A stretch of DNA of 64,000 nucleotides from an uncultured SAR86 cluster bacterium (GTDB lineage: Bacteria > Pseudomonadota > Gammaproteobacteria > Magnimaribacterales > AG-339-G14): NCBI GenBank assembly GCA_902570035.1, contig CACFWO010000001.1:1-64000 (forward strand), in the 5' to 3' direction. Made by a program: the position numbers and the translations under genes. Positions 6,443 through 59,360 of this stretch are shown in pieces (position 1 is the first letter of the stretch; every line of letters starts with the position of its first letter). The notes under the pieces were generated by a model. It was not told where the DNA came from. It ran no database searches and was given only the letters and a program-made list of their open reading frames with translations.

Positions 6443-7880
6443 CCAACATCTTCATGAATTCGTCTACAGGAGTATCCAGAAGCTTGTCTTTATCCTGACA
6501 TAACTCAAATATCTGGTTTGATTTTTCTTCATCAAACTGAGTTAGTAGATTTCTTTTGAATTTTTCTAAGAGAATTGGAATACCCTCTTCTCGCCTAAAT
6601 TTATGACCAATTGGATATTCAACCTCAATCTTTTCTGTTGAACTTCCGTCTTTGAAAATGATTTGCAATGCATTAGAAATAGATCTTTTATCGGGTTCAT
6701 GATACTCAGCTGAGTATCTTTCATCCTCTTCAATCAGCATTTTCTGTCTCAACTCATCAATTCTAGGATCGCTAGCAACATCATCTTCATAATCCTCAGC
6801 AACTAGATCACCCTTCAACAATCCAATAGCAGTCATATATTGGAGACAATGATCTCTATCAGCTGGATTATTCAATTCACCTTCTTTACTGATAATTCGA
6901 ATTGCTGACTCATGAGTCGTGATTTTGATTTGTTCAATTTCTTCTAATTTATCAATGATTTCTGGATGAAGTTTTACTGCTGCTTCAACTGAGGTCTGAG
7001 CATGAAATTCAGCTGGAAATGATATTTTAAACAAAACGTTTTCCATTACATAAGAATTAAAGTCTTGTTCAACAATCAAATCTTTACCTTCAAATAAGAC
7101 ATCTTGGAAACCCCATGTTTTCGAGGTAATAGCACTTGGATAACCGATTTGGCCTCTCATAGTAAATAAAACTAATTGCATTGCTCTGCTAGTAGCATCC
7201 CCAGCAGCCCAAGATTTTCTTGGACCGGCATTGGGTGCGTGACGGTAAGTTCTTAAACTTTGACCATCAACAAAAACTTGTGAAATTGCATCTAAAGATT
7301 GTTCTTTAGTGAGTCCAAATAATTTTGCTATCACAGATGTGGAGGCGAGTTTAACTAGAAGAACGTGATCGAGACCCACTCGATTAAAGCTATTTTTTAT
7401 TGCTAACACTCCTTGAATTTCATGGGCTTTAATCATACTTTCTAAAACAGCCTTCATCTTAAGAGGTTCCTTATTATTTTCTCTATTTTGCTGAGAGATA
7501 TAGTCAGCTGCAGCCAAAATTCCACCTAAATTATCTGATGGATGGCCCCATTCAGCAGCTAGCCATGTATCGTTGAAATCTAACCACCTTATAATCGCTC
7601 CGATATCCCAAGCACCTTTCACGGGATCAAGAATAAAGCTTGTTCCAGGAACTCTCACACCGTTTTTAACTTTTACATCATCTGCAAAGGGACCAAGCAT
7701 TTTTTTACAGTCATCAAAAGTAAGCGCAAGAAGACCGCAACCCAATGTGTCCATCAAGCAATGTCTTGCTGTTTCCATGGCAAGGTCATTAAATTCAGTA
7801 TCGCTTTGTGAGTAGTCAGAAATCTTTTGAATTAATTCATCAAAATCTGGACGTACATTTTGATCTACGTTTGAAGACAT
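6435..7880 (-). CDS. prpD: 2-methylcitrate dehydratase, MmgE/PrpD family
   Basis: PrpD dehydrates 2-methylcitrate to 2-methylaconitate in the propionyl-CoA-degrading methylcitrate cycle. The 481-aa protein shows family landmarks: DTLGCGLLAL near residue 50, the RWLDFNDTWLAAEWGHPSDNLG segment, and the AGDATSRAMQL region. It is the last gene of the prpB-prpC-prpD run, 7 bp after prpC. No acnD/prpF pair is present, so the cofactor-independent PrpD route is implied, with rehydration by a general aconitase elsewhere. Confidence 0.92.
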   Translation of the reverse strand: MSSNVDQNVRPDFDELIQKISDYSQSDTEFNDLAMETARHCLMDTLGCGLLALTFDDCKKMLGPFADDVKVKNGVRVPGTSFILDPVKGAWDIGAIIRWLDFNDTWLAAEWGHPSDNLGGILAAADYISQQNRENNKEPLKMKAVLESMIKAHEIQGVLAIKNSFNRVGLDHVLLVKLASTSVIAKLFGLTKEQSLDAISQVFVDGQSLRTYRHAPNAGPRKSWAAGDATSRAMQLVLFTMRGQIGYPSAITSKTWGFQDVLFEGKDLIVEQDFNSYVMENVLFKISFPAEFHAQTSVEAAVKLHPEIIDKLEEIEQIKITTHESAIRIISKEGELNNPADRDHCLQYMTAIGLLKGDLVAEDYEDDVASDPRIDELRQKMLIEEDERYSAEYHEPDKRSISNALQIIFKDGSSTEKIEVEYPIGHKFRREEGIPILLEKFKRNLLTQFDEEKSNQIFELCQDKDKLLDTPVDEFMKMLAK

Positions 7881-7887
7881 AAGAAGT

Positions 7888-9012
7888 TTATCTATTTTCT
7901 ATATCGACCCAATCGGATTTTTCAGGGCCAATGTATTCTTCGCTTGGTCGGATAATTCTATTATCAGTTCTTTGCTCTATGACGTTTGCAGACCAACCAG
8001 AGGTTCTGCCTATGACAAATAAGGGAGTAAAAATTTTTGTAGGAATGCCTAAATACGAGTAGGCAGAAGCCATGTAAAAATCAGTATTTGGAAAAAGATT
8101 TTTTTCTTCATCCATGACCTTATCAATCTCTTCGGAAACTTGATAAAGAATATCATCGCCATTCTGCTCGCTTAATTTTTTTGCCCATGACTTGATAATA
8201 TCGCTTCTTGGATCTTCAGTTGAATATACCGCGTGACCGAATCCCATTATTTTCTCTTTAGCCTCTAACATTTTTTTTACGCCAGCATTAGCCTCTTCTC
8301 TAGAAGAAAATTTCTCAATCATTTCCATTGCAGCTTCGTTAGCTCCTCCATGCAAAGGTCCTCTTAGAGTACCAATAGCGCCAGTAATGCATGAATGAAG
8401 ATCAGATAAAGTTGAGGCACAAGTTCTTGCAGTAAAAGTCGAAGCATTGAAACCATGTTCAGCGTAGAGAATTAAAGAAACATCTAAGCATCTTGCATCA
8501 TCTTTACTTGGTTCTTTTCCCGTAAGCATTGAGAGAAAATGGCCTCCTATAGAGTCGTGATCTGTGGCGGTTTCAATGGATTCACCATCATGCGAATACC
8601 GATACCAATAACAAACAACTGATGGAAATATAGATATCAATCTATCAGCAATATCTGCTTGATTAGAGAAATCTCCTTCTGGTTCTATGTTTCCCAGAAA
8701 AGAACAGCCTGTTCTAAGGACATCCATCGGATGCGCGGAAGCAGGAATCAGTTCAAGTACTTTTTTTAATTCTGACGGAAGTTCTCTGTATTTTTTTAAT
8801 TTTTCCTTATACTTGCTCAGCTCTGATTGGTTAGGTAAATTCCCATACAAAAGCATATAGGCAACTTCTTCAAATGAAGCTTTCTCAGAAAGTTCCTCAA
8901 TTGCATATCCTCTATAAGTAAGTCCTTTTCCTTCTTTTCCTACGGTTGAGAGAGCTGTTTGTCCAGCTACCTGTCCGCGAAGGCCAGCACCCTCTAGTTT
9001 CTTTTCAGCCAT
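7888..9012 (-). CDS. prpC: 2-methylcitrate synthase
   Basis: PrpC condenses propionyl-CoA with oxaloacetate. The protein (374 aa) is the short citrate-synthase type without the N-terminal domain of GltA. Catalytic motifs are visible: the His in LYAEHGFNAST, the His in GPLHGGANEAAM, and the GFGHAVYSTEDPRS segment containing His and Asp. Its place between prpB and prpD makes 2-methylcitrate synthase far more likely than a housekeeping citrate synthase. It lies 6 bp downstream of prpB. Confidence 0.94.
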   Translation of the reverse strand: MAEKKLEGAGLRGQVAGQTALSTVGKEGKGLTYRGYAIEELSEKASFEEVAYMLLYGNLPNQSELSKYKEKLKKYRELPSELKKVLELIPASAHPMDVLRTGCSFLGNIEPEGDFSNQADIADRLISIFPSVVCYWYRYSHDGESIETATDHDSIGGHFLSMLTGKEPSKDDARCLDVSLILYAEHGFNASTFTARTCASTLSDLHSCITGAIGTLRGPLHGGANEAAMEMIEKFSSREEANAGVKKMLEAKEKIMGFGHAVYSTEDPRSDIIKSWAKKLSEQNGDDILYQVSEEIDKVMDEEKNLFPNTDFYMASAYSYLGIPTKIFTPLFVIGRTSGWSANVIEQRTDNRIIRPSEEYIGPEKSDWVDIENR

Positions 9013-9018
9013 TATTAA

Positions 9019-9876
9019 TTAGTTTTTTTCGAAAAGTTTATCAATTTTCTCTTCGTACATATGATAGTCCAGGACATCATACAATTCATCTCTAGTTTGC
9101 ATTTTATCTAGCAAACCTTCGTGGTCCCCGCCAGAAGCTAGAGTAGCATATACTTTTTCTGCAGCTTTGGACATAGCTCTGAAAGCAGATAAAGGATGAA
9201 GAACAATCTTTACGCCTGCCTCAGCAAGTTCGTTGTGAGAAAAAAGAGGAGTCATGCCAAACTCAGTAATATTAGCCAGTAAGGGCTTTGATACATTTTT
9301 TGCTATTTCTTCATAATCTTTTAAAGTTGAAATTGCCTCTGGAAATATAGCCCCTGCTCCTGCCTCTATAAAAGCATTTGATCTATCAATAACTTCCTGT
9401 AATCCGCCTTTTGCAAATGCATCTGTTCTTGCCATGAGCAGAAAATTATCATCAGTCTGAGCATCTTTTGCTGCTTTGATTCTATCAACCATTTCTTCTA
9501 GACTAACTATTTCTTTATTGGGTCTATGACCGCACCTTTTTTCGCTTACTTGATCTTCAATGTGAACACCCGATGCCCCTGCAGATATCATTTCTTTTAT
9601 AGATCTTGAAATGGCTAGTGCCGATCCCCAGCCTGTATCGATATCCACTAATAAGGGAAGTTCTGAGGCCGACCTTATTCTCCTGACATCTTCTAAAACA
9701 TCTTCTCTAGAAGTCATAGCTAAGTCAGGGAGTCCGTAACTAGCATTGGCTACTCCACCTCCAGAAAGATAAATAGCTTTAATGCCTGCTCTTTCAGCTA
9801 AAAGAGCGGAATAAGCATTTATTGTGCCTGTAACGACTAGAGGTTTGTTCTCATTTATTAATTTTTCCCAGCTCAT
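9019..9876 (-). CDS. prpB: Methylisocitrate lyase
   Basis: PrpB cleaves 2-methylisocitrate to pyruvate and succinate, completing the methylcitrate cycle. The 285-aa protein has the isocitrate-lyase superfamily active-site motif EKRCGHRPNKE and the metal-binding LLVDIDTGWGSAL segment. The short length and lack of glyoxylate-cycle inserts favour methylisocitrate lyase. The start overlaps the thrH stop by 4 bp, linking the prp genes to the upstream cysB-thrH pair. Confidence 0.95.
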   Translation of the reverse strand: MSWEKLINENKPLVVTGTINAYSALLAERAGIKAIYLSGGGVANASYGLPDLAMTSREDVLEDVRRIRSASELPLLVDIDTGWGSALAISRSIKEMISAGASGVHIEDQVSEKRCGHRPNKEIVSLEEMVDRIKAAKDAQTDDNFLLMARTDAFAKGGLQEVIDRSNAFIEAGAGAIFPEAISTLKDYEEIAKNVSKPLLANITEFGMTPLFSHNELAEAGVKIVLHPLSAFRAMSKAAEKVYATLASGGDHEGLLDKMQTRDELYDVLDYHMYEEKIDKLFEKN

Positions 9877-10472
9877 AAATAGTTCTCTAACTTACACTTA
9901 AGTTCATTATGGTCTTGAATAGTTTCTAAATGTGGATATTTTTCTTTTATATGGGACGGAGCTTGAAAAAAGAACCCTTGATCTGCTGTATTCAACATGT
10001 TGATGTCATTGTATGAGTCTCCAGCGGCAAAAACTTTAAATTTCATGGTTCCTTTAATAGCCTCAATAACTTTTTGTTTATTGTTATCTTGTTTTAGTTT
10101 ATAACCAGTTATTTCAGAACCATTGAGCACTAAATGATGACAAATCACATGCGGATAGTTTAATTTTCTAACTAAGGGCCAACATAACTCATAGAAGGTA
10201 TCTGAAACAATGGAAACTTGAAAATTATCTCTTGCCCAAGATAAAAAATCAGCAGCGCCATCCATGGGTTCCATCTTTTCTACAATCCCCATGATGTCAT
10301 GAATTGTAATGTTGTTATCGGAAACTAGTTTAAGACGAATGTCCATTAGTTCTTCATAGCTTTCAAGATCTTGCGTTGTTAGCATCAGACCTTCAATCCC
10401 AGTTGCCTTAGAGACTTCTTGCCATATTTCGGGTATTAAAACTCCTTCAAAATCTAGACATAAATAATCCAA
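9873..10472 (-). CDS. thrH: ThrH-type phosphoserine phosphatase / homoserine phosphotransferase
   Basis: A HAD-family enzyme matching ThrH, which in Pseudomonas dephosphorylates phosphoserine and can transfer the phosphate to homoserine. Motifs are LCLDFEGVLIPEIW (nucleophile Asp), SDTFYE, and the AAGDSYNDINML aspartates. I place the start at TTG 10472, one base after the cysB stop. It is preceded by AGGAG five bases upstream and gives an N-terminus aligned with known ThrH (199 aa). A further-upstream TTG at 10502 would add 10 residues and lacks a ribosome site. The end overlaps prpB by 4 bp. Confidence 0.88.
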   Translation of the reverse strand: MDYLCLDFEGVLIPEIWQEVSKATGIEGLMLTTQDLESYEELMDIRLKLVSDNNITIHDIMGIVEKMEPMDGAADFLSWARDNFQVSIVSDTFYELCWPLVRKLNYPHVICHHLVLNGSEITGYKLKQDNNKQKVIEAIKGTMKFKVFAAGDSYNDINMLNTADQGFFFQAPSHIKEKYPHLETIQDHNELKCKLENYL

Positions 10473-10473
10473 A

Positions 10474-11448
10474 TTATCTCCTGATGAGTTTGACGGATTC
10501 AAATATTTTATCTAATTCTTTTTTTGATTTGGTTGCGCAAGCTTTTGCTATTAATTCTGTTTTTAAATGTGGAGCAAACATCTGAATAAACTCATACAAA
10601 TGACTTCTTAGATATGTCCCTCTTCTGAAACCAATATATGTGGTCCCTGAATCAAAAAGGTGATTAGCATTAATAGCAACAAGGTCTTTGTCTTCTTGCT
10701 CATTAAAAGCCATAGAAGCAATAATTCCAACTCCAATTCCTTGTTTGACGTATGTCTTGATCACGTCTGCATCGGTAGCTGTAAAAACTACATTTGCTTT
10801 CAAGCCCCTTTCAAAAAAAGCTCTATCCAGATCATTGCTGCCTGTAAATCCAAAAACATATGTAACAATTGGAAATTCAGCTAGATGTTTAAGTTTTGGT
10901 TTAGTTACATTTGCAAGAGGGTGCCCTTTAGGGACTATTAAACTCCTGGACCACTTGTAAGCAGGGAGTTTAATTAATGTTTCACCTTTTTCAGATGTTT
11001 CTGTCCAAATCGCTAAATCTACTTCACCTTTGGCTGCCATCTCTACTGATTCATCTGGAGTGCATTGATTCATTTGAAATGAGACATTTGGATATTTTTT
11101 AACAAATTTATCCACCACTAGTGGCAAGGTAAATTTAGCCTGAGTATGTGTTGTAGCAATAGCCAATGAACCATAGTCCTCATTAGAAAACTCTGTAGCA
11201 GCATGTTTAATGCCATCAACAAGAGCAAGGATTTCTTCAATCTGTTCCAGTATTCTTTTGCCTATGGGGGTTATGGCTACCAGATGCTTTCCGGATCTCT
11301 CAAACAACTCAATTCCTAATTCTTCCTCAAGGAGTTTTATTTGCTTGCTTATTCCAGGTTGAGAGGTATAGAGATTTTTTGAAGCCTGAGAGACATTCAA
11401 ATTACTTCTAGCTACCTCACGCACATATAGTAATTGTTGAAATTTCAT
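10474..11448 (-). CDS. cysB: CysB-like LysR-family transcriptional regulator
   Basis: The 324-aa protein starting at ATG 11448 has exactly the length of CysB. It has the same N-terminal winged helix (NLNVSQASKNLYTSQPGISK, about residues 15-34) and the following LFERSGKHL and IATTHTQA segments. In enterobacteria CysB responds to N-acetylserine and sulfate/thiosulfate. A longer reading frame to 11574 exists but its extra residues are promoter DNA. A TATAAT at 11455-11460 sits 6 nt from the ATG with no Shine-Dalgarno, suggesting a leaderless transcript. The downstream genes thrH-prpBCD are close enough to share the transcript. Confidence 0.9.
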   Translation of the reverse strand: MKFQQLLYVREVARSNLNVSQASKNLYTSQPGISKQIKLLEEELGIELFERSGKHLVAITPIGKRILEQIEEILALVDGIKHAATEFSNEDYGSLAIATTHTQAKFTLPLVVDKFVKKYPNVSFQMNQCTPDESVEMAAKGEVDLAIWTETSEKGETLIKLPAYKWSRSLIVPKGHPLANVTKPKLKHLAEFPIVTYVFGFTGSNDLDRAFFERGLKANVVFTATDADVIKTYVKQGIGVGIIASMAFNEQEDKDLVAINANHLFDSGTTYIGFRRGTYLRSHLYEFIQMFAPHLKTELIAKACATKSKKELDKIFESVKLIRR

Positions 11449-15740: not shown

Positions 15741-15808
15741 AAAGCTTCGAAAGGCTTTGCATATAATTAAATTCATATATATTATTGCTATATTATTGCA
15801 TTTATTTA

Positions 15809-15822
15809 GAACAAAAATGTTC
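15809..15822. promoter_or_regulatory. Inverted repeat GAACA-N4-TGTTC before yjbE-like gene
   Basis: GAACAAAAATGTTC lies immediately before the GAGAGG ribosome site of the yjbE-like gene. It could be an operator or a short 5'-UTR hairpin that modulates translation. Confidence 0.4.
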
Positions 15823-15833
15823 GAGAGGTTAAA

Positions 15834-16223
15834 ATGAAGTCATTTAAAATTTTATTAATCACAGTTGCTCTTTCATTAAGTCCACTGTCTTTTGCACAAA
15901 GCGCAGGTGGATCAAGTGCAGCTGGTTCTGCTGGCACTCTTTCTAGTGGCGTTATCGCCGCTATTGCGGCTGCCGTTCTAGCAGTTGCAGCTATTGTAGA
16001 TGCACAAGATGGAGAGGATGCTATAACTCCTGCACCTATTGCTCCAGCGGCTACAGATGATTCCACTGATGATTCCACTGATGATTCTACAGACACACCA
16101 GCTTCAACAGACACAAGCACCAGCGCAAGCACAAGCACAAGCACAAGCACAAGCACAAGCACAAGCACAAGCACAAGCACTAGCACAAGCACTAGCACTA
16201 GCACTGCTACCTCTACTTCATAA
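15834..16223 (+). CDS. YjbE/GfcA-like secreted Ser/Thr-rich protein
   Basis: A 129-aa protein with a clear signal peptide (MKSFKILLITVALSLSPLSFA, cleavage probably after AQS or SFA). It continues with an Ala/Gly-rich hydrophobic stretch (about 28-57), DDSTDDST repeats (about 75-88) and a (Ser-Thr)n tail. The same architecture (signal peptide, Ala/Gly/Val hydrophobic core, Thr/Ser tail) is seen in E. coli YjbE and GfcA, encoded with yjbF/gfcB and yjbH/gfcD. Homologues of those two lie next door, so I assign it to that role by architecture and context. It has a good ribosome site (GAGAGG) and ends before a strong terminator. The mature function is unknown. Confidence 0.75.
   Translation: MKSFKILLITVALSLSPLSFAQSAGGSSAAGSAGTLSSGVIAAIAAAVLAVAAIVDAQDGEDAITPAPIAPAATDDSTDDSTDDSTDTPASTDTSTSASTSTSTSTSTSTSTSTSTSTSTSTSTATSTS
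16131..16178 (+). repeat. Hexanucleotide tandem repeat, 8 x ACAAGC
   Basis: Eight uninterrupted copies of ACAAGC, followed by degenerate ACTAGC units up to about 16206. They encode the Thr-Ser tail of the yjbE-like protein. Copy-number changes keep the frame and only alter tail length. Confidence 0.9.
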
Positions 16224-16240
16224 ATTTTTTTTAATACCAC

Positions 16241-16264
16241 AAAAGCCTGATCACTCAGGCTTTT
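16241..16264. terminator. Intrinsic terminator between yjbE-like gene and yjbF
   Basis: AAAAGCCTGA, loop TCAC, then TCAGGCTTTT: a perfect 10-bp stem followed by more T residues. It lies 17 bp after the yjbE-like stop and overlaps the yjbF stop codon, so it may serve both convergent genes. It is the only classical terminator I could identify in the window. Confidence 0.85.
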
Positions 16265-16910
16265 TGTATTGTTTAGTAATGGTGAAAGATATTTTTGGAT
16301 TTTTAGGAGTAAAATTTTGTTCAGCTTTAATGATCTGATCATTTTCATCAACCCAATAAATATTTTTAAATTTCCAAGAAATTAAATTCTCTAAAGACTC
16401 TTCTTCAAAAACTTTTACATTGTATAAATTGTCTAAAATTTCAATATTTTCTGTCTTCAAAAAACTCAGCTTTGTCTTAACAGGCAATCTATAAAGTCTT
16501 GGATTATTAAAAGTATAAAAAGAAGTAAATGTTTTACCTTTTAAATCTGGATAAAAAGCACCTAATTCTATTGGATGATTTTTATCAAGCTCTATTAAAT
16601 CAAGTTCGTTATCAAGACCTTTTAATCTGATAATGAATCCATTTTTTGTATAAATTTTTATTAAGTTTGATGAGGTCCACTTTAAAATATCATCTATTTC
16701 TTCTTCAAGAATAATTAAAGTATTTTGATTTCTCCCAAGTCTAACTTGCATAGAAGCATAAGGAATCGAATTTACTAACTCAGCTGAAATATCATCAGGG
16801 GTAGAGAAGATTTTTTTAAGATTCTCCACCATCTCCGAATAAATATCTCCGTTAGCACAAGATACAAGTACTATTGGAAAAATAAATAAATATTGTCTTA
16901 ATTTACTCAT
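16251..16910 (-). CDS. YjbF/GfcB-type exopolysaccharide lipoprotein
   Basis: A 219-aa outer-membrane lipoprotein candidate. The N-terminus carries a lipobox (IVLVSCANG, Cys near residue 18), and the SIPYASMQVRLGRNQ segment matches the YjbF/GfcB family, which functions with YjbH/GfcD in polysaccharide secretion. I start it at ATG 16910, which has AAGGA five bases upstream; an ATG at 16922 has none. The start overlaps the yjbH stop by 8 bp. No yjbG/gfcC gene was found between them. Confidence 0.85.
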   Translation of the reverse strand: MSKLRQYLFIFPIVLVSCANGDIYSEMVENLKKIFSTPDDISAELVNSIPYASMQVRLGRNQNTLIILEEEIDDILKWTSSNLIKIYTKNGFIIRLKGLDNELDLIELDKNHPIELGAFYPDLKGKTFTSFYTFNNPRLYRLPVKTKLSFLKTENIEILDNLYNVKVFEEESLENLISWKFKNIYWVDENDQIIKAEQNFTPKNPKISFTITKQYKKPE

Positions 16911-19020
16911 AAAATCCTTCATTGAGGTATTCTAAAAAGTGAGATGAAGAATTTTCAATAAACCCGCCTAAATCTAATGATCCAGATAACATTGCGCCGC
17001 CATCTCTTGTTAAATTCTTCCATACAAACTTCGCGTTATTCTTCCTGTACTTACTAGATACAACGTCTAAAGGAATTGAGAAATAAAGACCTTTATCAAA
17101 GCTTCCTTCTCCAAACTCAAAAGCTGAGATATCTGTTTTTGTGGCAAAAAACCCAACAGTAAAGCCTGTTTTAAAAGTTTTTGAAAGATTTAAAGTAATG
17201 CCTGAGTCCTTAGCCAAATACCTTCCTCCTGATAAAATCATCTTTACGCCATCTAGAGGGGTTTCCCATATAAAGTTTAAATGACCTGTAAAGGTCTCAT
17301 AATTCCTAAAACTAAATCTTTGATTAAATTCTCTTTGCTTGACCCAATAATAATTAGCAGTCAGATACCATGGTTTTTTAATATCTCTAAATAGAACCTC
17401 TCCTCCGACACCTCCAAACATCTCCTCAAATAGTCCTATTTTAAGTCCTCCAAAAAAAAGATAATCTTTTGAGTAAATTGGATTAAACATATGAGAGAAA
17501 GTAAGTTTTTTTAGGACATATCTTTCTTTTAAGTACTCTCTTACATCAGATCTTACTTTTGGAAGTCTCGAATAAGCTTTTAGTCTCAATTGGTCAAGGT
17601 TCTGAAAGATTCCCAGTCCAACAGTTGAATCAAAAAAAGTATTTTTATTTAAAATTATACCTCCGGAAGTCAGAAGTCCAATTTGACCAGAATAGAATGC
17701 TTCAGGAGCCCCTACATGATTTTTTAAATCGGGTTTTATCCCCCAGGTATATAAAGGAAAATTAATGTTTCCCTTAAAAATTCTGTTTTCGTCATTATCT
17801 AAATAAAAGTTCTCGTAAGAAATATATTTTTTTACTTCTGCGAAGGAGATGGAATTATTCATAAATTGTCTGAATTTATCTAATGGAAATTTAATTGATC
17901 CAGTCTTAACGTTTCCGGTCTGAAAAATAATTGATACATTCTTTATGTTTCTGGTTAAAAGAACTTTATCGATAATTTGGATAACTCTTTTAGCGGCTAT
18001 GTTTAAGTTCCTATACTTTGATTGATCCACTGATATCATGAGATCGCTATTTCTTATATAGATTTCTTGAGTATATATTTGGTATCTGGATAACAGGAGA
18101 TTAATTGTTCCTGAGAAAACTGCATCACTGGATGATAAAAGATCTGTGTCTTCTTTTGAGAAATTAATAGGATTGATGACTTCATTTTTTGGTATTAGCT
18201 GTCTGGAATAATTTGCCTTGTAAGAAAGTCCAAAACCTATATCAACTCCACGGTGCTTGAATAAATTTATGTCAAAATATTTTGATGCAGGTATTGCCAA
18301 ACCAAAGCTATAATCTGATTCTTTTTTCAGATTGAATGGATTGGATTTATCGTAATCCATTTTAAATCTTATTCCCGAATATTTATTTAAGTAAGAGAAG
18401 CCGTAAAAGGCAGACGCTTTAGGGCCTCTAAAGAATTTTTTGAATTCTAAATCTCCCCCTAATCCATAACCAGTTGGTCTTGTTGAGTATGACTCATCAA
18501 TATCAATGAAAGGATTTTTAATACCTTTACTTTCTGAAAGAGAGCCCCATCCTAATCCCGCTGTAAGATCAAAATCACCAATCTTTTTTGAAGTTACAAC
18601 ATATTCTCCTCCAAATTTTCCTGTACCGATAAAATCTCTAAATCCAATACTTAACTCAGGAAATCTTTCTGTCTCTTCAATCAATTTAATTTTTAAATTA
18701 AAACTTTTATCTTTATAAGTCTGGTCACCGGAAAAAGATTTATATGGACTGTATTTACTTGTATTAATATCAGCGTATCTCAAAGAAACTTCCATCCAGT
18801 CAAAAGGATTAGCGGTGATGAATAAGGAGTTTATGGGATCTGAATTTACAAGGTGAAGTTTTAAATTTCCCTCCTTGAGAATTCTTGAAGAGGGTATATT
18901 TATTAGACCAATTTCTCCATGTAGATTAGAAGTAAGTCCAACATCTGAATAAATATAGTCTTCTATTGAGCCATGGATGCTTACAGAAAAAATTAAAAAA
19001 AAAAGTAACCTTTTTTTAAT
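16903..19020 (-). CDS. YjbH/GfcD-type outer-membrane exopolysaccharide protein, ATT start
   Basis: A 705-aa YjbH family protein, predicted beta-rich and outer-membrane. Conventional start codons only allow a start at ATG 18795 (630 aa), which would remove the signal peptide and the family's N-terminal GLINIPSSRILKEG-like motif. The frame stays open back to a TAG at 19032-19030. It has no ATG, GTG or TTG before 18795, but an ATT at 19018-19020 has AGGA seven bases upstream and is followed by a textbook signal peptide (KKRLLFFFLIFSVSIHG). Length then matches E. coli YjbH (about 700 aa). The ATT overlaps the stop of the SLBB exporter gene. An indel error in the nearby A/T homopolymers is the alternative. 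Confidence 0.82.
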   Translation of the reverse strand: MKKRLLFFLIFSVSIHGSIEDYIYSDVGLTSNLHGEIGLINIPSSRILKEGNLKLHLVNSDPINSLFITANPFDWMEVSLRYADINTSKYSPYKSFSGDQTYKDKSFNLKIKLIEETERFPELSIGFRDFIGTGKFGGEYVVTSKKIGDFDLTAGLGWGSLSESKGIKNPFIDIDESYSTRPTGYGLGGDLEFKKFFRGPKASAFYGFSYLNKYSGIRFKMDYDKSNPFNLKKESDYSFGLAIPASKYFDINLFKHRGVDIGFGLSYKANYSRQLIPKNEVINPINFSKEDTDLLSSSDAVFSGTINLLLSRYQIYTQEIYIRNSDLMISVDQSKYRNLNIAAKRVIQIIDKVLLTRNIKNVSIIFQTGNVKTGSIKFPLDKFRQFMNNSISFAEVKKYISYENFYLDNDENRIFKGNINFPLYTWGIKPDLKNHVGAPEAFYSGQIGLLTSGGIILNKNTFFDSTVGLGIFQNLDQLRLKAYSRLPKVRSDVREYLKERYVLKKLTFSHMFNPIYSKDYLFFGGLKIGLFEEMFGGVGGEVLFRDIKKPWYLTANYYWVKQREFNQRFSFRNYETFTGHLNFIWETPLDGVKMILSGGRYLAKDSGITLNLSKTFKTGFTVGFFATKTDISAFEFGEGSFDKGLYFSIPLDVVSSKYRKNNAKFVWKNLTRDGGAMLSGSLDLGGFIENSSSHFLEYLNEGFYE

Positions 19021-21607
19021 TGTTATTTCCTAAGGCTGCAATAGCGGCAGCGCTAGTTGCGAAATTTGAAATTATTGGAAACAGAACTTGAGAAAATACC
19101 AACCAATCAAATGGGTTAGGATCTCTTGGGACAATCAACGAGGTACCAGGCGCTAAGTCTGGAGAGTTTGGCCAATTTCTGACTCTTGATGCCATACCAT
19201 TTGGATAAATGACCAAGGTACGATTTTTATCTGCTTCTTCAGAATACCCTCCGGCTTGATTAATGTAATCCTTTACTTTGAATGAAGGGTTAAAAGTAAA
19301 GCTGGTTGGAGATAAAACTTGACCAGAAACTGTTACAGTTGAAGGCCTATCTGGGATAAAAATTCTGTCTCCTGGCTCGAGAAGAATGTCTCTTTCTGGA
19401 AATTTTTCTAAAGTATCTAAATCCAACTCAGTCACAACTCTCCCAATAGGATCAATATTTTCTAAATCAGTAATGAGTCTTGATATAGATGTTAATGCCA
19501 ATGTTGGATCTCCTCCAACCGAAGAAATTCTTCCGCTCGAAATTGCCGTTGCAATGGATTGTTCTAATTGATCTGCAGATTTTAAAAATGCAATTTTTTC
19601 TTTTTCTGCTACAGATTTTCTGGCTAAAATCCCACCATATGGAAAGGCGTTAGATTTATATCCACCCGCTCTTCTTATAATTTCAGATAATCTATCTCCT
19701 TGTTTTGCTCCGTAGATGCCTGGATTCTTAAAAGCTCCTTCCAGTGAAATTGAAAAGATATCATTTTGAACTTTTGATGATAAATTTGCATAAAAACCAG
19801 AATTAACTCCTAATTCAATTAAATCTTTATTTGAAGCATCATTTAATTTTAAGGAAATACCATCATCAGTATAGAGATCAATAATTCCTGAAAATTTATC
19901 TGATGCGCCGCCAGCATAAGAAAGCAAATCTGAGATTGAAGCAATATTAAAAGATGGATATATTCCTGGATTTCTTATCTCTCCCGAAAGAACAGAAGAG
20001 TTTTCTAAAGCAAATATAACTAAATAAGGCTTAGCTTCAAAAATTCTTGGGCATGCATCAACAAATTCGAGTTGATCAATGGGATCTATATCTGGATTTG
20101 GAAGGTATTTAGACTTAACAAATTTTATAGATGAAGATAATGACTGTTTAGCCAACATTTGAAGTGATTTACACTGAAATCTATCTAAATTACTTCGCTT
20201 AAAATAATCAGAAAGTACTTCGGACTCCTTATTTTTTAATATACCTAAAGCATCTGCAACCAAAATAGAGTTCAAAAAAGCTATATCTTTTTTAGATAAA
20301 ACATAAATTATGTCATTTGGCTGAAGTTTGGTACTGCTACCATCGTTGTCATATAAATTTGTCTTTAAAAGACTTTTGGAACCGTAATTATTTTCTCTTT
20401 CAATTATTGCAAATGGAGCATACGTTGACTCATAAAAATCTTCAGGTTTGATTAATTCTTCAAGGGTAAGGTTAGGTTCAAATGCAACAGAACCGGAAGC
20501 AGAAATTTCTCCAACAATTTTAACAACGTTTCTGGGGGTATTTGGAAGGCTGTGGATAAATATTTCATCGCCGTCCTTCAATGGAACATTTATTATTTCT
20601 CTGAGAGAGTAGTTCTTGAATATTCTTTCGCCGTTTTCAGCATATGAACTCAAAGTAATATTATTTTGATCTGCTTTATTTGTAAAACCGGATGAAAAAG
20701 AAATCAAATCAGAAAAGTTTTCATCTTTGATTAATTCAAATTGCGCTTGATTTTTAACCTGCCCAGATATAGTGACAGCCTTGCCTATTGGGTTGATGAC
20801 TATGGCATCGTTAGATTGAAGTTTTATGTCATTTTTTATATTTCCTTTTATTAGGAATTCATAAAAATCTAGAACTGCAATTTCCTGACCGTCTCTTTTT
20901 ACAGATATATTTCTCAGAGAGCCATTTTGTGAGGGTCCTCCAGAAAAAAATAGAACATTAGATATATTAGACAAAGAGCTGACCGTATAAGCGCCAGGAC
21001 TATATGCGTTTCCTAAAACAAAAATTTGGATAGACCTAATTTTCGCTAGAGAAATATCAGAACTTACCCCAATTAAGGAGGCTTTAATGACTGAATTTAT
21101 TTTATTTTTAGCTTCCTGAAAATTTAAACCTGAAACCTCTATAGAGCCTGTTTCAGGAATAGTGATATTTCCCTCTCTATTAACTGGCACAAGCCTGTTA
21201 ACTGTTATAGATCCAAAAAGTTGGATTTTTAGTTCATCTCCAGGACCTAGAGTATAGTCCATTGGAGCTGGAGCTAGATCAATAGGAGCAAATGTTGATG
21301 GAGATTCTTTGAATAAATCTAAACCGAAAACTTTATTTGAATACAAAGAATCAAAATTTATTTCATTGGCTAAATCATTATTGAGAATTTTTGGTTTTGA
21401 GCTTTGAAAAGAAGGATTATCAAAGTCATCCATCTTAATTTCTTCTCTAATGGGCTTACCAGTTTGGATTCCTAGTTTAGCTGTGATGCTCTCAGCTTGA
21501 GAAGCTGGCAGCATATTGAGCAATTCTAAGTCTTCTTGTGATTGAGTAAAACCGAAAGAAGATGCAAAAGTTGCTATAAAAATTAAAAACTTAGAAAAAA
21601 ATGACAT
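19016..21607 (-). CDS. Polysaccharide export protein with PES and multiple SLBB domains (Wza/GfcE-like)
   Basis: An 863-aa envelope protein with a signal peptide (1-21 approx.), a polysaccharide-export domain starting at YTLGPGDELKIQLFG (about 117-131), and at least four SLBB-type segments carrying G-x-V-x-N/S-P-G patterns (ISGQVKNQAQF, LSGEIRNPGIYPS, LEGAFKNPGIYG, VSGQVLSPTSF). It is about twice the length of Wza. It is the likely export channel or periplasmic conduit working with the downstream YjbH and YjbF proteins. It starts inside the nadK stop codon (TAATG) and its stop overlaps the yjbH ATT. Confidence 0.88.
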   Translation of the reverse strand: MSFFSKFLIFIATFASSFGFTQSQEDLELLNMLPASQAESITAKLGIQTGKPIREEIKMDDFDNPSFQSSKPKILNNDLANEINFDSLYSNKVFGLDLFKESPSTFAPIDLAPAPMDYTLGPGDELKIQLFGSITVNRLVPVNREGNITIPETGSIEVSGLNFQEAKNKINSVIKASLIGVSSDISLAKIRSIQIFVLGNAYSPGAYTVSSLSNISNVLFFSGGPSQNGSLRNISVKRDGQEIAVLDFYEFLIKGNIKNDIKLQSNDAIVINPIGKAVTISGQVKNQAQFELIKDENFSDLISFSSGFTNKADQNNITLSSYAENGERIFKNYSLREIINVPLKDGDEIFIHSLPNTPRNVVKIVGEISASGSVAFEPNLTLEELIKPEDFYESTYAPFAIIERENNYGSKSLLKTNLYDNDGSSTKLQPNDIIYVLSKKDIAFLNSILVADALGILKNKESEVLSDYFKRSNLDRFQCKSLQMLAKQSLSSSIKFVKSKYLPNPDIDPIDQLEFVDACPRIFEAKPYLVIFALENSSVLSGEIRNPGIYPSFNIASISDLLSYAGGASDKFSGIIDLYTDDGISLKLNDASNKDLIELGVNSGFYANLSSKVQNDIFSISLEGAFKNPGIYGAKQGDRLSEIIRRAGGYKSNAFPYGGILARKSVAEKEKIAFLKSADQLEQSIATAISSGRISSVGGDPTLALTSISRLITDLENIDPIGRVVTELDLDTLEKFPERDILLEPGDRIFIPDRPSTVTVSGQVLSPTSFTFNPSFKVKDYINQAGGYSEEADKNRTLVIYPNGMASRVRNWPNSPDLAPGTSLIVPRDPNPFDWLVFSQVLFPIISNFATSAAAIAALGNNN

Positions 21608-39775: not shown

Positions 39776-41674
39776 TTAATTATCAACTTTCTTGGAGCAT
39801 TTAGGTGGAAGATTAATTGTTGGATTTTCATCAAAAAAACCGAATGGAATCAAATGAAAACCACAGTATTCAACAGGCATCACTGGCCAATCCTCGGGTC
39901 TTGGAACATGTGTTACTCCAAAAGTATACCACGTCACTAAATCACAGTTACTTATGTCTCTATCTCCAGAAGTAATATCTTCCAATCCACCTTCTCCAGA
40001 ATGCATCACTGAGTTTGCTCCTCCGGCGGCGTATTCACCATCGTTAAATGGCGTTCCCCATAGGTTATGTTTTCCAAAAGAGGCTCTTTTAGCCGGCGGA
40101 GAATCATCCCGCGCAAGCAATTTAGGTGTATTTCCCGGCAGTAATTTATATGCTACCGGCAGTCCCATGCCATTTTTTTTCTGCGGATTAACTACTTTCC
40201 ATATTCTACTTGTTGCATGAGAAATATCTCTTTTAGCTTCATTTTCAGTTTTTAAATGAGTAGAAACGGATTGGAATTGCATACCGTGAGGGTTGTTATC
40301 ATCATCAGGCATCAACTCAATTTCGCTCTCAAATAATTGGTTATTGCCTCCATCTAAATTCCAGTCTAATCGCATACAGAAAAGATGCTGATGAACTGGA
40401 GAAACCAATTCCTTTGAAATTCTTAAGTCTTGGTTTGGATTATGTTTCTCTTCGTTGTAAGCGCTGATACCAACAATACCAGTCAATTTAACTTCGGCTT
40501 CAATGGTGCCATCTAAATATAGATACCAAAATAAACCGTAATCATAATTACCTATTGTTGAAATCGAACTGATTACGAGCCTTCTAGACCTTCTCACCTC
40601 ATTAGGTGCTCCCATTCCATCATTGTGCTTCCATTGAATCCCATAATCCTCTTCATGCAGGCAAATCGCATTTTCTATGACTTCGACTGAACCATCAAAA
40701 GATATACCATTAGCATTGAAATAATGAATCTCTCCAAGACAATCACAACCTAACGTAAGTGAATTTGAAAGCCTACCAAAACCGTATTCAGTTCCGTCAT
40801 GGACTGCTTTCCATGAATGCATGGGATCAGCTGACCCATAAGGTACAACCATATCTGACATTGCAGCTCTGAATAAGATAGGCCTATCATTGAGAGAAAG
40901 CTCATGCAGCACTACTCCTTCATCGGGAGTTAAAGAAACTCTCACATCCCAACCTTCCCAAGATATTTTATTTCTATCAACGCTGAAACCAACTCCATCA
41001 GGTTGAGTGATTTTTATTTCTTTTGGTACGTTTCTCAAGATTTTTTGTGATGCTGCATCGTAATTAGCTTTAGCATCTGGAATAGGATCTACTCCATGAT
41101 CTTCAACACAGACAACTTCTCCAAGGGTTAAGTCAACGTGACCGATTACTCCGTTAATGGGTTTTGCATATGGATTATCTCCAGCTTCCTCCTTAAAAAA
41201 GGATATGCCTTTAAGAGCTCTATGCCCTTGTTTGATTTTTTCGTGAACAATACCACCAGCTGGCCAGGGATCGATTTGTAGCTTTTCCATATCGGTAACG
41301 CCTCTTTTTTTCATAGCTGCCTGATAATCTGGATGTTCTTTTAGAAGATTCATTGCTGTAAAAATATCCTGCACGGTATATTGAACTTGTGCTGAATTTG
41401 ACACTCTTTTGACATTAAGAGTTTTATTCGACAGGTTGATGGTTGCTATAAAACCCCCATCAAGAGCTGAGTCTCTTCCAATAAGTTTTACTTCCCTTTC
41501 AAAAGGATCTCCTGATTTAAAATCTTTTAAAAACTCTTTTGAAGGCTCCACTAAAGAGATTTGACTAAAATGAGTTGCTTCATCATAACCCTCTGATATT
41601 TTATATATTTCATATGCCAGAGAAATTTCCTCTGTTGATAACATTTCTAAAGGATGTTCTATTTTTGAAATCAT
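39776..41674 (-). CDS. Copper-containing primary amine oxidase
   Basis: A 632-aa copper amine oxidase that oxidises primary amines to aldehydes with H2O2 and NH3 release. The self-processing TPQ tyrosine is Tyr377 in GNYDYGLF. The probable catalytic base is Asp293 in AVHDGTEYGFG, and copper ligands include the HxH in VHQHLFCMRLD. No signal peptide is seen, so it is probably cytoplasmic like the Arthrobacter enzymes. It overlaps the upstream methyltransferase-like membrane gene by 4 bp. Confidence 0.93.
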   Translation of the reverse strand: MISKIEHPLEMLSTEEISLAYEIYKISEGYDEATHFSQISLVEPSKEFLKDFKSGDPFEREVKLIGRDSALDGGFIATINLSNKTLNVKRVSNSAQVQYTVQDIFTAMNLLKEHPDYQAAMKKRGVTDMEKLQIDPWPAGGIVHEKIKQGHRALKGISFFKEEAGDNPYAKPINGVIGHVDLTLGEVVCVEDHGVDPIPDAKANYDAASQKILRNVPKEIKITQPDGVGFSVDRNKISWEGWDVRVSLTPDEGVVLHELSLNDRPILFRAAMSDMVVPYGSADPMHSWKAVHDGTEYGFGRLSNSLTLGCDCLGEIHYFNANGISFDGSVEVIENAICLHEEDYGIQWKHNDGMGAPNEVRRSRRLVISSISTIGNYDYGLFWYLYLDGTIEAEVKLTGIVGISAYNEEKHNPNQDLRISKELVSPVHQHLFCMRLDWNLDGGNNQLFESEIELMPDDDNNPHGMQFQSVSTHLKTENEAKRDISHATSRIWKVVNPQKKNGMGLPVAYKLLPGNTPKLLARDDSPPAKRASFGKHNLWGTPFNDGEYAAGGANSVMHSGEGGLEDITSGDRDISNCDLVTWYTFGVTHVPRPEDWPVMPVEYCGFHLIPFGFFDENPTINLPPKCSKKVDN

Positions 41675-56629: not shown

Positions 56630-57436
56630 ATGACAAATAACCTTAATATCGATGTCTCAAAAGGAAAATTGGATCAAAAAGAAAAAGGTTCCTTACTTCC
56701 AATAGAATGTAAATCCATTGAGGAAACAAGGAGATATAACCTAGAAAGATTAGCTTCAGGATTTAGAATGTTTGCTCATTTTGGTTTTGATGAAGGAATA
56801 GCTGGTCACATTACATATAGAGATCCTGAACACGAAGATCATTTTTGGGTAAATCCTTTTGGAATGCATTTCAATCAAATTTGTGTCTCTGATTTAATAC
56901 TAGTAAACAAGGACGGTGAAGTAGTACTAGGAGATAAGCCAGTAAATACGGCTGCATTTGCAATTCATTCATCTCTTCATGATGCAAGACCAGATGTAAA
57001 TGCTGCAGCTCACTCTCATTCTATGTATGGCAAAACTTTTTCAACTTTCGGCAGACTTCTTGAGCCGATAACTCAAGATTCCTGTGCTTTTTTTGATAAT
57101 CATGTTCTCTTTGATGATTACACAGGTGTGGTTCTAGAAGGAGATGAAGGTATAAGAATTGCTGCCGCATTAGGTGATAAAAAGGCTGCTATTCTTAAAA
57201 ATCATGGTCTCTTAACTACAGGCGGGACCGTGGATGAAGCGCTTTGGGCTTTCTTATCAATGGATAGATGCTGTCAATCTCAAATTTTGGCAGAATCCGT
57301 TGGGCAAATGGAAAGAATTCCTGATGATGTAGCTCAATTGACAAAATCACAAGTTGGTTCGGATATGGCTATGTGGGCAAGTTATCAGCCTCTGTACGAC
57401 TTAATGCTTGAGAAAGATCCAAGCTTCTTAAATTAG
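56630..57436 (+). CDS. Class II aldolase/adducin-domain protein
   Basis: A 268-aa zinc-dependent aldolase-family protein. The metal-binding HSHSMYGKTF and later KNHGLLTTGG His residues, and the GIAGHITYRDPEHEDHFW segment, match the group that includes L-fuculose-phosphate aldolase. Many bacterial members lack aldolase activity or act on other hydroxy-acids. TAGGAG lies upstream of the ATG. The glycosyltransferase gene follows after 3 bp. Confidence 0.88.
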   Translation: MTNNLNIDVSKGKLDQKEKGSLLPIECKSIEETRRYNLERLASGFRMFAHFGFDEGIAGHITYRDPEHEDHFWVNPFGMHFNQICVSDLILVNKDGEVVLGDKPVNTAAFAIHSSLHDARPDVNAAAHSHSMYGKTFSTFGRLLEPITQDSCAFFDNHVLFDDYTGVVLEGDEGIRIAAALGDKKAAILKNHGLLTTGGTVDEALWAFLSMDRCCQSQILAESVGQMERIPDDVAQLTKSQVGSDMAMWASYQPLYDLMLEKDPSFLN

Positions 57437-57439
57437 GCC

Positions 57440-58825
57440 ATGTTTCTTGTTTACTTGCTTGGGGTAGTGCTGTTTTTTTCCTTTCTGGCAAATTTTGCAT
57501 TTAGGAAAATCTTCAAATCTTTAAGCTGGGTAGATAAGCCCGACGGAGTAAAGAAACTTCACAAGAATGATATACCTCTTTCTGGAGGCATATCTTTCAT
57601 AGCATCATTAATGTTTGCAGTTCTAATCTTTGATTTCTTTGCAGGGGTAAATTTCAATTTATCCTGGAATGGCTTTTTTGTTGGTGACTCTATTAAAGAA
57701 GATAGTTCATTAAATCAAAATCTTAGTAAAAAAATTGATCTTATTGGTAATGATTCTTTTGAAATTAAAGTTGTAGGTATAAATGAAAATTCTCAAGCTG
57801 TCGAAGTCATAAACAAGAAAACTTTTGAAACGGAGTTGATGGAAGTATACAAAGATGAAACTGGTTTTTTCCAAATTAAAGGTGATGGTTTCGAGGCTAA
57901 TTCAAATTACGTTCAAGAAACACTGTTACCTCCAAAAGTTACTGTGAATATCAATGGCGATGAGTCAATTTACTATCAAAAAATTAATGTTAATGTTCCG
58001 CCCTTTTTTATATGGATGTTAATTACAGGAATCATTCTTGCTTTTGTAACTTTAATTGACGATTTATGGGGTTTAAGTGTCCCAACGAGATTTTTATTTC
58101 AAGCTATATCTTGTTTAATTCTTATTACTCAGTCTGGTTTGTATATAGATAATTTAGGAAATTTATTTGGTTTAGGCTCTATTAAACTCAATCCAGCTTT
58201 AGGAGTTTTATTCACAATTTTTTGTGTAATAGGTGTTCTGAATGCTTTTAATTGGATTGATGGCTTTAATGGTGGTTTAACCAGCCAATTTCTGGTCGGT
58301 ATCACCGCTCCTTTAATACTTTTATCTGCGAACAATTCCATTTTCATTGAGCAAATTTATTTATTTCTTGTAATTTGTTTTCTTCCTTATGCACTTATGA
58401 ATCTTAAAGTCTTAGGTAAAAGATTTGTCATCTTTATGGGAGATCATGGCTCAATGTTTTGTGGATACATTGTGGCATGGTGCTTAATTTATTTTGCAAT
58501 GGAAAGGGCTGATTATATGAATCCTATAACAGCAGTTTGGATCGTTGGATTTGTTTTATTTAACGCGATATCTACAATAATTATTAGACTTTCGAATAAA
58601 AGATCTCCGCTAACATCTGATAGAAGTCATGTTCATCATGTGCTAGATGGACTTGGCCTAAAGGGTCTAAGAGTTTCTTTCGTTATTTTAGTCATATCTT
58701 CCCTACTTGCCCTAACAGGAGTAACTCTTGAATTAATTGGCGTATCAGAGTTAGTTTCTATGCTTCTTTTAGTTTTTGTAAGCTTGGTATTTCTGAGATA
58801 TAGATTTAATTTAGAGAATTCCTAA
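57440..58825 (+). CDS. WecA/WbpL-type glycosyl-phosphate transferase with inserted extracytoplasmic domain
   Basis: A 461-aa polyprenyl-phosphate sugar-1-phosphate transferase that starts lipid-linked glycan synthesis. Conserved parts: DKPDGVKKLHKNDIPLSGG (32-50), the Mg-binding DD at 207-208, NAFNWIDGFNGG (Asp274), FMGDHGS (Asp335) and SDRSHVHHVL (His397/399/400). The GDHG form replaces the usual GDAG. Residues about 71-187 form a hydrophilic beta-rich insert between membrane helices 2 and 3, predicted on the periplasmic side, where the family has only a short loop. The gene overlaps a convergent PAP2 phosphatase gene by 20 bp. Confidence 0.88.
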   Translation: MFLVYLLGVVLFFSFLANFAFRKIFKSLSWVDKPDGVKKLHKNDIPLSGGISFIASLMFAVLIFDFFAGVNFNLSWNGFFVGDSIKEDSSLNQNLSKKIDLIGNDSFEIKVVGINENSQAVEVINKKTFETELMEVYKDETGFFQIKGDGFEANSNYVQETLLPPKVTVNINGDESIYYQKINVNVPPFFIWMLITGIILAFVTLIDDLWGLSVPTRFLFQAISCLILITQSGLYIDNLGNLFGLGSIKLNPALGVLFTIFCVIGVLNAFNWIDGFNGGLTSQFLVGITAPLILLSANNSIFIEQIYLFLVICFLPYALMNLKVLGKRFVIFMGDHGSMFCGYIVAWCLIYFAMERADYMNPITAVWIVGFVLFNAISTIIIRLSNKRSPLTSDRSHVHHVLDGLGLKGLRVSFVILVISSLLALTGVTLELIGVSELVSMLLLVFVSLVFLRYRFNLENS

Positions 58826-59360
58826 AATTTTTTAAATACACGTATCCTCCTATAGCGCCAAGAATAGCACCGTAGAACGAACCAGCAAAAACTTGATAAG
58901 GAAAGTGTTTTCCTAGATAAATTCTAGATATAGCTACAGAGCAAGAAATTAAGAGAAAAATTAAAGAATATCTATTTACTTTAAAAATAGTTAATAAAAA
59001 TAATGAACCTGCAAAAAAATTAGCTGAATGATTTGAGGGCATTCCTGTCAGAGTTGCAGAACATTGATTCAAAAGTTGGCCCTTGTCATCTAAAAGATAT
59101 GAATAATCAGAAAAACACGGTCTAAAGTCTAAAAAGTAGCTTTTTAAAAGATTTGCACTAAAGTCGGTTATTCCAATGGTTAAAAGCCAAGCTATGAATA
59201 CCCAAAGCAACTTCTCTTGAGATTTATAAAAAAAATAAGGAATAACACAAAAAGCCAAAAATAATCCAAACAAATTATTGCTTAAGATTTGCATTAAACC
59301 CTCTAAAAGATTGCTTTGACCTCTCAGAGAGTTAAACAATTCCAGTAGATCAAAATCCAC
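58806..59360 (-). CDS. PAP2-family membrane phosphatase
   Basis: A 184-aa phosphatidic acid phosphatase/undecaprenyl-pyrophosphatase-type protein with about five membrane helices. The three-part active site is visible: KSYFLDFRP (KxxxxxxRP), GMPSNHSANFF (PSxH), and SRIYLGKHFPYQV (SRxxxxxHxxxD-like, with Gln in place of the usual Asp). Likely substrates are polyprenyl or lipid pyrophosphates, which fits the neighbouring WecA-type gene. Confidence 0.88.
   Translation of the reverse strand: MDFDLLELFNSLRGQSNLLEGLMQILSNNLFGLFLAFCVIPYFFYKSQEKLLWVFIAWLLTIGITDFSANLLKSYFLDFRPCFSDYSYLLDDKGQLLNQCSATLTGMPSNHSANFFAGSLFLLTIFKVNRYSLIFLLISCSVAISRIYLGKHFPYQVFAGSFYGAILGAIGGYVYLKNFRNSLN

Follow-up and report, generated by a model that had tools for sequence, protein, structure and literature searches.

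The WecA-type gene, its neighbours and the export cluster

The window, the whole stretch of 64,000 nucleotides of SAR86 DNA that was analysed, carries a gene for a putative WecA-type transferase, flanked by an aldolase and a phosphatase gene, and a set of candidate polysaccharide export genes (Table 1). The product of the transferase ORF matched PF00953 with an E value of 4.5e-24 (85.7 bits against a cut-off of 27), and scored 209.7 bits with TIGR02380, the ECA WecA model, which is under its cut-off of 326.05. An AlphaFold2 model, obtained from an alignment of 46 homologues and mostly confident in its core, was compared with solved structures and matched 18 entries of bacterial MraY and human DPAGT1 with Z scores of 21.3-27.3 (MraY, 21.3-27.3; DPAGT1, 25.8-26.9). 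Motifs, helix layout and fold are those of the polytopic phosphoglycosyltransferases of the WecA (TIGR02380) and PF00953 families. The transferase shares the core fold of the solved structures and has, in addition, a domain between helices 2 and 3. To our knowledge, neither DPAGT1 nor MraY carries a domain at this site, and their short chain lengths fit this. One further PF00953 gene was found in the same genome, and is presumably mraY. The genome belongs to SAR86, as seven named relatives at 85-91% identity all carry the label SAR86 cluster bacterium.

Table 1. Features of the window, with coordinates and the observations on which each assignment is based
Feature	Position	Strand	Basis
Ser/Thr-rich protein with signal-like start, GfcA-like by composition and place	15834..16223	+	no Pfam match
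YjbF/GfcB-type lipoprotein	16251..16922	-	PF11102, E 9.7e-25
YjbH/GfcD-type double-barrel outer-membrane protein	16903..18795	-	PF06082, E 1.5e-143
Polysaccharide export protein (Wza/GfcE-like, Poly_export + SLBB)	19016..21607	-	PF02563, PF10531
Class II aldolase family gene, just upstream of WecA	56630..57436	+	PF00596
WecA-type polyprenyl-phosphate sugar-1-phosphate transferase, 461 aa	57440..58825	+	PF00953, TIGR02380, structure matches
Predicted inserted periplasmic beta-rich domain, residues 69-188, between helices 2 and 3	57644..58003	+	model, charge, conservation, selection
Asp207-Asp208, cytoplasmic end of helix 3	58058..58063	+	both in 46/46 rows
D274-G-F-N277 loop motif, Asn replacing second Asp	58259..58270	+	D274 in 46/46 rows
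G334-D-H-G337 motif	58439..58450	+	D335 in 46/46 rows
HxHH motif, residues 397-400	58628..58639	+	H397 and H399 in 46/46 rows, H400 in 45/46
PAP2-family phosphatase gene, convergent, overlapping the WecA stop	58806..59360	-	PF01569

Motifs were counted in 46 aligned rows of SAR86 homologues. The residues typical of the PF00953 superfamily (the Asp-Asp pair, the loop Asp, the Asp of GDxG and HxHH) are all present, and the sequence-only reading, according to which the catalytic motifs were retained, stood for Asp207-Asp208, Asp274, Asp335 and His397, 399 and 400. It did not stand for the second Asp of the DGxDG motif (D159 of E. coli WecA), which is replaced by Asn277; Asn occupied this position in 38 of the 46 rows and Asp in the other 8. 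Judged from the motif, position 277 would be the counterpart of MraY D196, which lines the uracil pocket (PMC6606608), and of DPAGT1 Asn191, which hydrogen-bonds uracil (PMC6218659). Asn277 therefore looks compatible with activity, since DPAGT1 has a uracil-binding Asn at what would be the matched position, although D156 and D159 of E. coli WecA, cited as belonging to the active site (PMC5843353), weaken this reading. The GDHG motif, regarded earlier as unusual, turned out not to be so, as position 336 was His in 16 rows, including all 14 from the family of the window (f1), Asn in 16, Ser in 13 and Thr in one. Taken by its fold and most of its motifs, from which activity and substrate are deduced, the ORF encodes an active-looking WecA-type transferase, which differs from the ECA enzyme in its score under the cut-off, in the domain between helices 2 and 3 and in Asn277.

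The stop codon of the aldolase gene lies three bases from the WecA ORF, and in the 14 f1 loci compared, which come from genera g1-g4 (g1 being the genus of the window), an aldolase gene likewise stood in this position. The PAP2 gene adjoined WecA in 8/8 g1 loci and in 0/6 loci of g2-g4, its place being thus specific to g1. All eight g1 copies of this phosphatase have Gln in the third motif (SR...H...Q), where Asp is expected, and all nine g1 genomes gave a further match to PAP2 elsewhere, in a frame some 555 aa long. PAP2 was discarded as a general partner of the insert, as none of the eight genomes of family f3 that were searched, insert-bearing or not, gave a match; Wzy_C/WaaL, matched in 13 of 61 genomes (4/9 in g1, 9/52 in the others), was too patchy for a judgement on its role as a partner.

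The genes at 15834-21607 have the composition expected of a group 4 capsule-type export cluster, as the YjbF/GfcB, YjbH/GfcD and Poly_export/SLBB components by which such clusters were recognised are all encoded there. The Ser/Thr-rich GfcA-like ORF is likewise shared with the gfcABCDE and yjbEFGH systems; GfcA of E. coli has 101 aa, 30% of them Thr (PMC8592465, PMC11494523). No match to a stand-alone GfcC was obtained among the subset of window ORFs scanned. As the open frame of yjbH comprises 708 aa, its true start is probably further upstream. The gene lies about 39 kb from WecA, and the export machinery about 36 kb away. The functions of gfcABCD are called unknown in one account (PMC8592465), and a role for GfcD is backed by simulation in another (PMC11494523); as for a coupling of WecA to the group 4 capsule, the word WecA is absent from the main texts of both. 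Two other ORFs were recorded in the window: a low-complexity frame of 181 aa antisense to the GfcA-like ORF (15806-16351, minus strand), which is probably spurious, and a copper amine oxidase gene (39779-41674, minus strand), here in a small SAR86 genome.

The domain between helices 2 and 3

The stretch of about 117 hydrophilic residues that had been proposed to separate helices 2 and 3 was recovered by the AlphaFold2 model, in which these helices span residues 49-68 and 188-210; residues 71-187 correspond exactly to positions 57650-58000. This segment has a GRAVY of -0.44, no cysteine and a net charge of -8, compared to +4 for the loop between helices 1 and 2, and these charges, following the positive-inside rule, place the insert in the periplasm. 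The position of Asp207-Asp208 at the cytoplasmic end of helix 3 leads to the same side for the helix 2-3 loop, which we take to be the established topology of the family. Charge and helix layout thus agree with the periplasmic location suggested from the sequence, rather than with a cytoplasmic one. An assembly error is ruled out by the presence of the insert, in frame, in 8/9 genomes of genus g1.

The predicted structure of the insert also conformed to the beta-rich domain anticipated, with seven strands and one short helix, at a low pLDDT (33-47 for residues 71-180). Beyond MraY and DPAGT1, the best matches of the window model, with this low-confidence insert, were barrels of the meander kind, for the most part lipocalins, with Z scores of 5.0-6.3. 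Prediction of the f3 insert by itself, from 26 sequences, gave eight strands in a meander with a mean pLDDT of 62.5; the best Foldseek match of this model was NlpE (E 0.042; Z 5.9), and structure comparison (VIA) gave Z scores of at most 6.2. As the structure tool regards Z under 8 as noise, and all fold matches of both inserts fall there, the insert is described here just as a beta meander, perhaps calycin-like, and the assignment of both the g1 and the f3 inserts to this class is made with low confidence. By sequence, the best PDB matches of the insert profiles were a designed trefoil for f3 (E 0.042) and a match with E 1 for g1; a Pfam search with seven inserts gave E values of 0.017 or worse, every match being under cut-off, and no second copy of the insert was found in the genome of the window.

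Rough NG86 dN/dS ratios, with dS near saturation and some pairs unusable, were calculated for the insert and the core, and were 0.077 and 0.048 in g1 (25 of 28 insert pairs usable), 0.149 and 0.064 in g17, 0.231 and 0.112 in g6, and 0.300 and 0.079 in g11, which clearly indicates purifying selection on the insert in all four genera tested. Residues 69-188 would constitute an extra, separately folding periplasmic beta-domain, with a fold deduced from prediction and a place, conservation and selection seen directly. The insertion in this WecA-type enzyme is thus real and conserved.

Distribution of the insert and its match with YjbH type

The insert was present in 8/9 genomes of g1; in genome G001, neither WecA nor its aldolase neighbour was matched, so that loss of the locus is indistinguishable from an assembly gap. 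In genera g2-g4, a WecA match was obtained in 25 of 31 genomes and in none of them did it span an insert. Among the f3 genomes with a WecA match, g6 and g10 contained both insert-bearing and insert-less forms, g9, g14 and g17 had the full insert, g18 lacked it, and in g11 it was mostly reduced, to 83-94 aa in eight loci, with a full-size segment of 123 aa in genome G069; over 28 f3 loci, the segment ranged from 83 to 135 aa.

A tree of the WecA core with 54 rows required at least two changes of insert state, and none of 500 shuffles gave a number as low; g1 grouped with the insert-less f1 genes. Alignment of the g1 and f3 insert profiles by hhalign gave a probability of 11.6% and a P of 0.0026 for 33 columns, the Neff of the g1 profile being 1.3, and is reliable neither way: the two inserts occupy the same site and appear to have no reliable sequence relation. 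This points either to two origins or to one ancient origin followed by losses and extreme divergence.

When the g1 insert profile was run against 369 genomes of the class, the genome of the window was the sole match. TIGR02380 was matched in 228 of 274 genomes of the class, and among the matches listed, as read by eye, this genome alone combined a profile start at 55-75 with a frame longer than 420 aa; listed class members with frames near 550 aa gave contiguous matches, which places their extra length outside the helix 2-3 loop. The insert is common inside SAR86, and elsewhere none was found among the class rows listed; the possibility raised at the outset, that it would prove common in the family, thus came true inside SAR86 but not among the listed rows from outside it. 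A literature search for a described periplasmic insert in WecA, or for SAR86 surface glycans, returned nothing that was recognised as such.

In g6, g9 and g10, WecA is followed by genes for TerB and a carboxylesterase, by tRNA-Pro (present in 7/10 f3 loci scanned) and then by export genes. The sister genomes G151, with a long WecA, and G149, with a short one, were 90% identical until about 190 bases before WecA, beyond which WecA could not be aligned save for 80 bases and TerB and the esterase shared 68% identity, before 97% identity over 87 bases was reached at tRNA-Pro; this drop and return indicates that blocks have been swapped between genomes. The swapped stretch covers 7200-11123 of locus L058 and 6600-10223 of L083, both in WecA-forward orientation. 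Trees of photolyase, ALDH, TerB and esterase mixed long and short forms (4, 5, 5 and 5 changes, respectively, with at least three changes of WecA state for photolyase), whereas the WecA tree separated them, so that one locus holds either of two WecA alleles, which are shared by several genera and look like long-lived alternating variants.

YjbH was detected in 107 of 203 genomes of the order. In f1 it was present in 9/9 g1 genomes and in 0/31 genomes of g2-g4, and insert and YjbH are thus associated there too, as joint presence or absence. A YjbH tree of 49 rows was divided into sides A and B by one branch (100/100) that cut across g6 and g10. Side A held all 17 long-insert f3 genomes, three of g1, two of f2 and two of f4, and side B all 20 insert-less f3 genomes and five of g11. 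In g6 and g10 together, long WecA went with type A in 7/7 genomes and short WecA with type B in 19/19, that is, in all 26 with both forms known and in the tree; the Fisher p of 1.5e-6 for this match ignores kinship, as the counts are of kin genomes and not of independent events. Genome G122 was a blind case: its YjbH was of the long type (A), the test was noted down, and its broken-off WecA fragment, at a contig start, proved to carry the tail of an insert.

In g6 and g10, WecA and YjbH lie some 3-6 kb apart when on one contig. Linkage was controlled for in 12 genomes, six of each genus (11 for FTHFS and ALDH), with the between-type minus within-type distance as the statistic. Within a genus, the distance for the WecA core was 0.337 between genomes alike in type and 0.565 between those of different type; the corresponding values were 0.462 and 0.691 for YjbH, but 0.328 and 0.355 for TerB, and 0.362 and 0.370 for the esterase. 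The statistic was 0.202 for the WecA core, 0.239 for YjbH and 0.012 for TerB, each with 2/400 within-genus permutations as high, which is the permutation floor and was reached by TerB with a far smaller effect; it was 0.002 for the esterase (58/400), -0.004 for photolyase (78/400), -0.001 for IMPase (78/400), -0.001 for FTHFS (21/200) and -0.011 for ALDH (122/200). TerB and the esterase, between WecA and YjbH, sort chiefly by genus, with little trace of type.

The match was broken in other parts of the order. In g11, inserts occurred with type B YjbH in all five genomes in the tree, G069 included, and f2 and f4 genomes without insert had an A-side YjbH (two of each in the tree, and G049 alike); in f4 genome G197 the two genes are about 4 kb apart. 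Of six longer stretches by which the A and B proteins differ in length, five fell at about residues 310-445 of type A, and one was C-terminal; residues 310-445 were taken as the periplasmic middle domain because the published GfcD model has such a domain between its two barrels (PMC11494523, PMC8592465). Among 16 long f3 genomes, insert distances followed those of the WecA core (r 0.95), and their uncorrected correlation with the YjbH middle region (0.467, likewise 0.534 for the WecA core) vanished once the core was allowed for (partial r -0.152, with 1920/2000 permutations as high). A direct contact of the insert with this region, or a partnership at the level of residues, is therefore not supported. 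The match of WecA and YjbH is thus one of types and holds for part of the order, and to that extent the notion that the insert could dock exporters has indirect support, with the breaks in g11, f2 and f4 and the missing fine covariation on the other side.

Further observations were made on the YjbH loci. In genome G156 (L060, C2:272634-274615), stops interrupt YjbH, which is split into several fragments, and the long WecA is open. At the sole type B locus scanned, the neighbour of YjbH carries a bacterial surface Ig-like domain, PF16403 (L084, 3097-4209, plus strand); its place is taken, in the two type A loci that were scanned, by a small protein that matches nothing in Pfam.

Possible roles of the insert

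The reading that we tentatively prefer is that the insert is an adaptor that matches the initiating enzyme to group 4 capsule-type export, a role deduced from the match of WecA and YjbH types in part of the order. Most likely, WecA transfers a sugar-1-phosphate from a UDP-sugar to undecaprenyl phosphate at the cytoplasmic side, thus starting a lipid-linked glycan that would leave through the YjbF/YjbH/SLBB machinery; on the outer face, the insert would match the enzyme to the periplasmic side of this machinery, by touching a periplasmic part of the exporter or by holding a flippase or polymerase near. The insert is probably accessory to a yjb/gfc-type glycan pathway, and its match with the exporter in part of SAR86 suggests that glycan start and export are linked. 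A stronger form, in which the adaptor, perhaps gained twice independently, physically engages the YjbH/GfcD assembly and mismatched alleles are selected against, is unlikely; if it were true, initiation inside and export in the periplasm would be coupled in one envelope-spanning machine.

The same match could arise without coupling if WecA and the yjb/gfc genes were swapped as linked blocks and the insert were a passenger of an ancient WecA lineage, which is a possible, if somewhat doubtful, explanation. Block swaps are seen in the G151/G149 alignment, the short distance in g6 and g10 would allow hitchhiking, and both the exceptions in g11, f2 and f4 and the lack of fine-scale covariation speak for it. 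However, the intervening TerB and esterase genes hardly follow the type, the two genes of the window are far apart, and f1 repeats the association with an insert whose sequence shows no reliable relation to the f3 insert. It is quite improbable that the insert is just a loop that grew longer on the periplasmic face and is tolerated there as neutral or as of structural value only. At the protein level it does change about twice as quickly as the core (g1 dN 0.099 and 0.049), and its length varies among the f3 loci, but its dN/dS is well below 1 in the four genera tested, 66 of 125 positions are invariant across eight g1 rows, the insert state changed at least twice at the same site, and SAR86 genomes are small (1.14 Mb here). 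There is a similarly slight chance that the insert, as a small calycin-like barrel, binds a lipid or a glycan in undecaprenyl phosphate recycling or in sensing, and perhaps, in g1, acts together with the PAP2 phosphatase encoded beside it. The lipocalin-like and NlpE matches and the constant PAP2 neighbour in g1 are in its favour, against which stand the low pLDDT of the insert, scores that all lie within noise and the failure to match PAP2 in the f3 genomes sampled.

A transferase domain that tracks exporter type in part of a bacterial order would offer a concrete, testable tie between the first and the last step of group 4 capsule-type pathways. SAR86 bacteria are among the commonest of the ocean surface, and because of this abundance their surface glycans matter for encounters with phages and grazers; WecA alleles that alternate in several genera may themselves signal selection on the cell surface.
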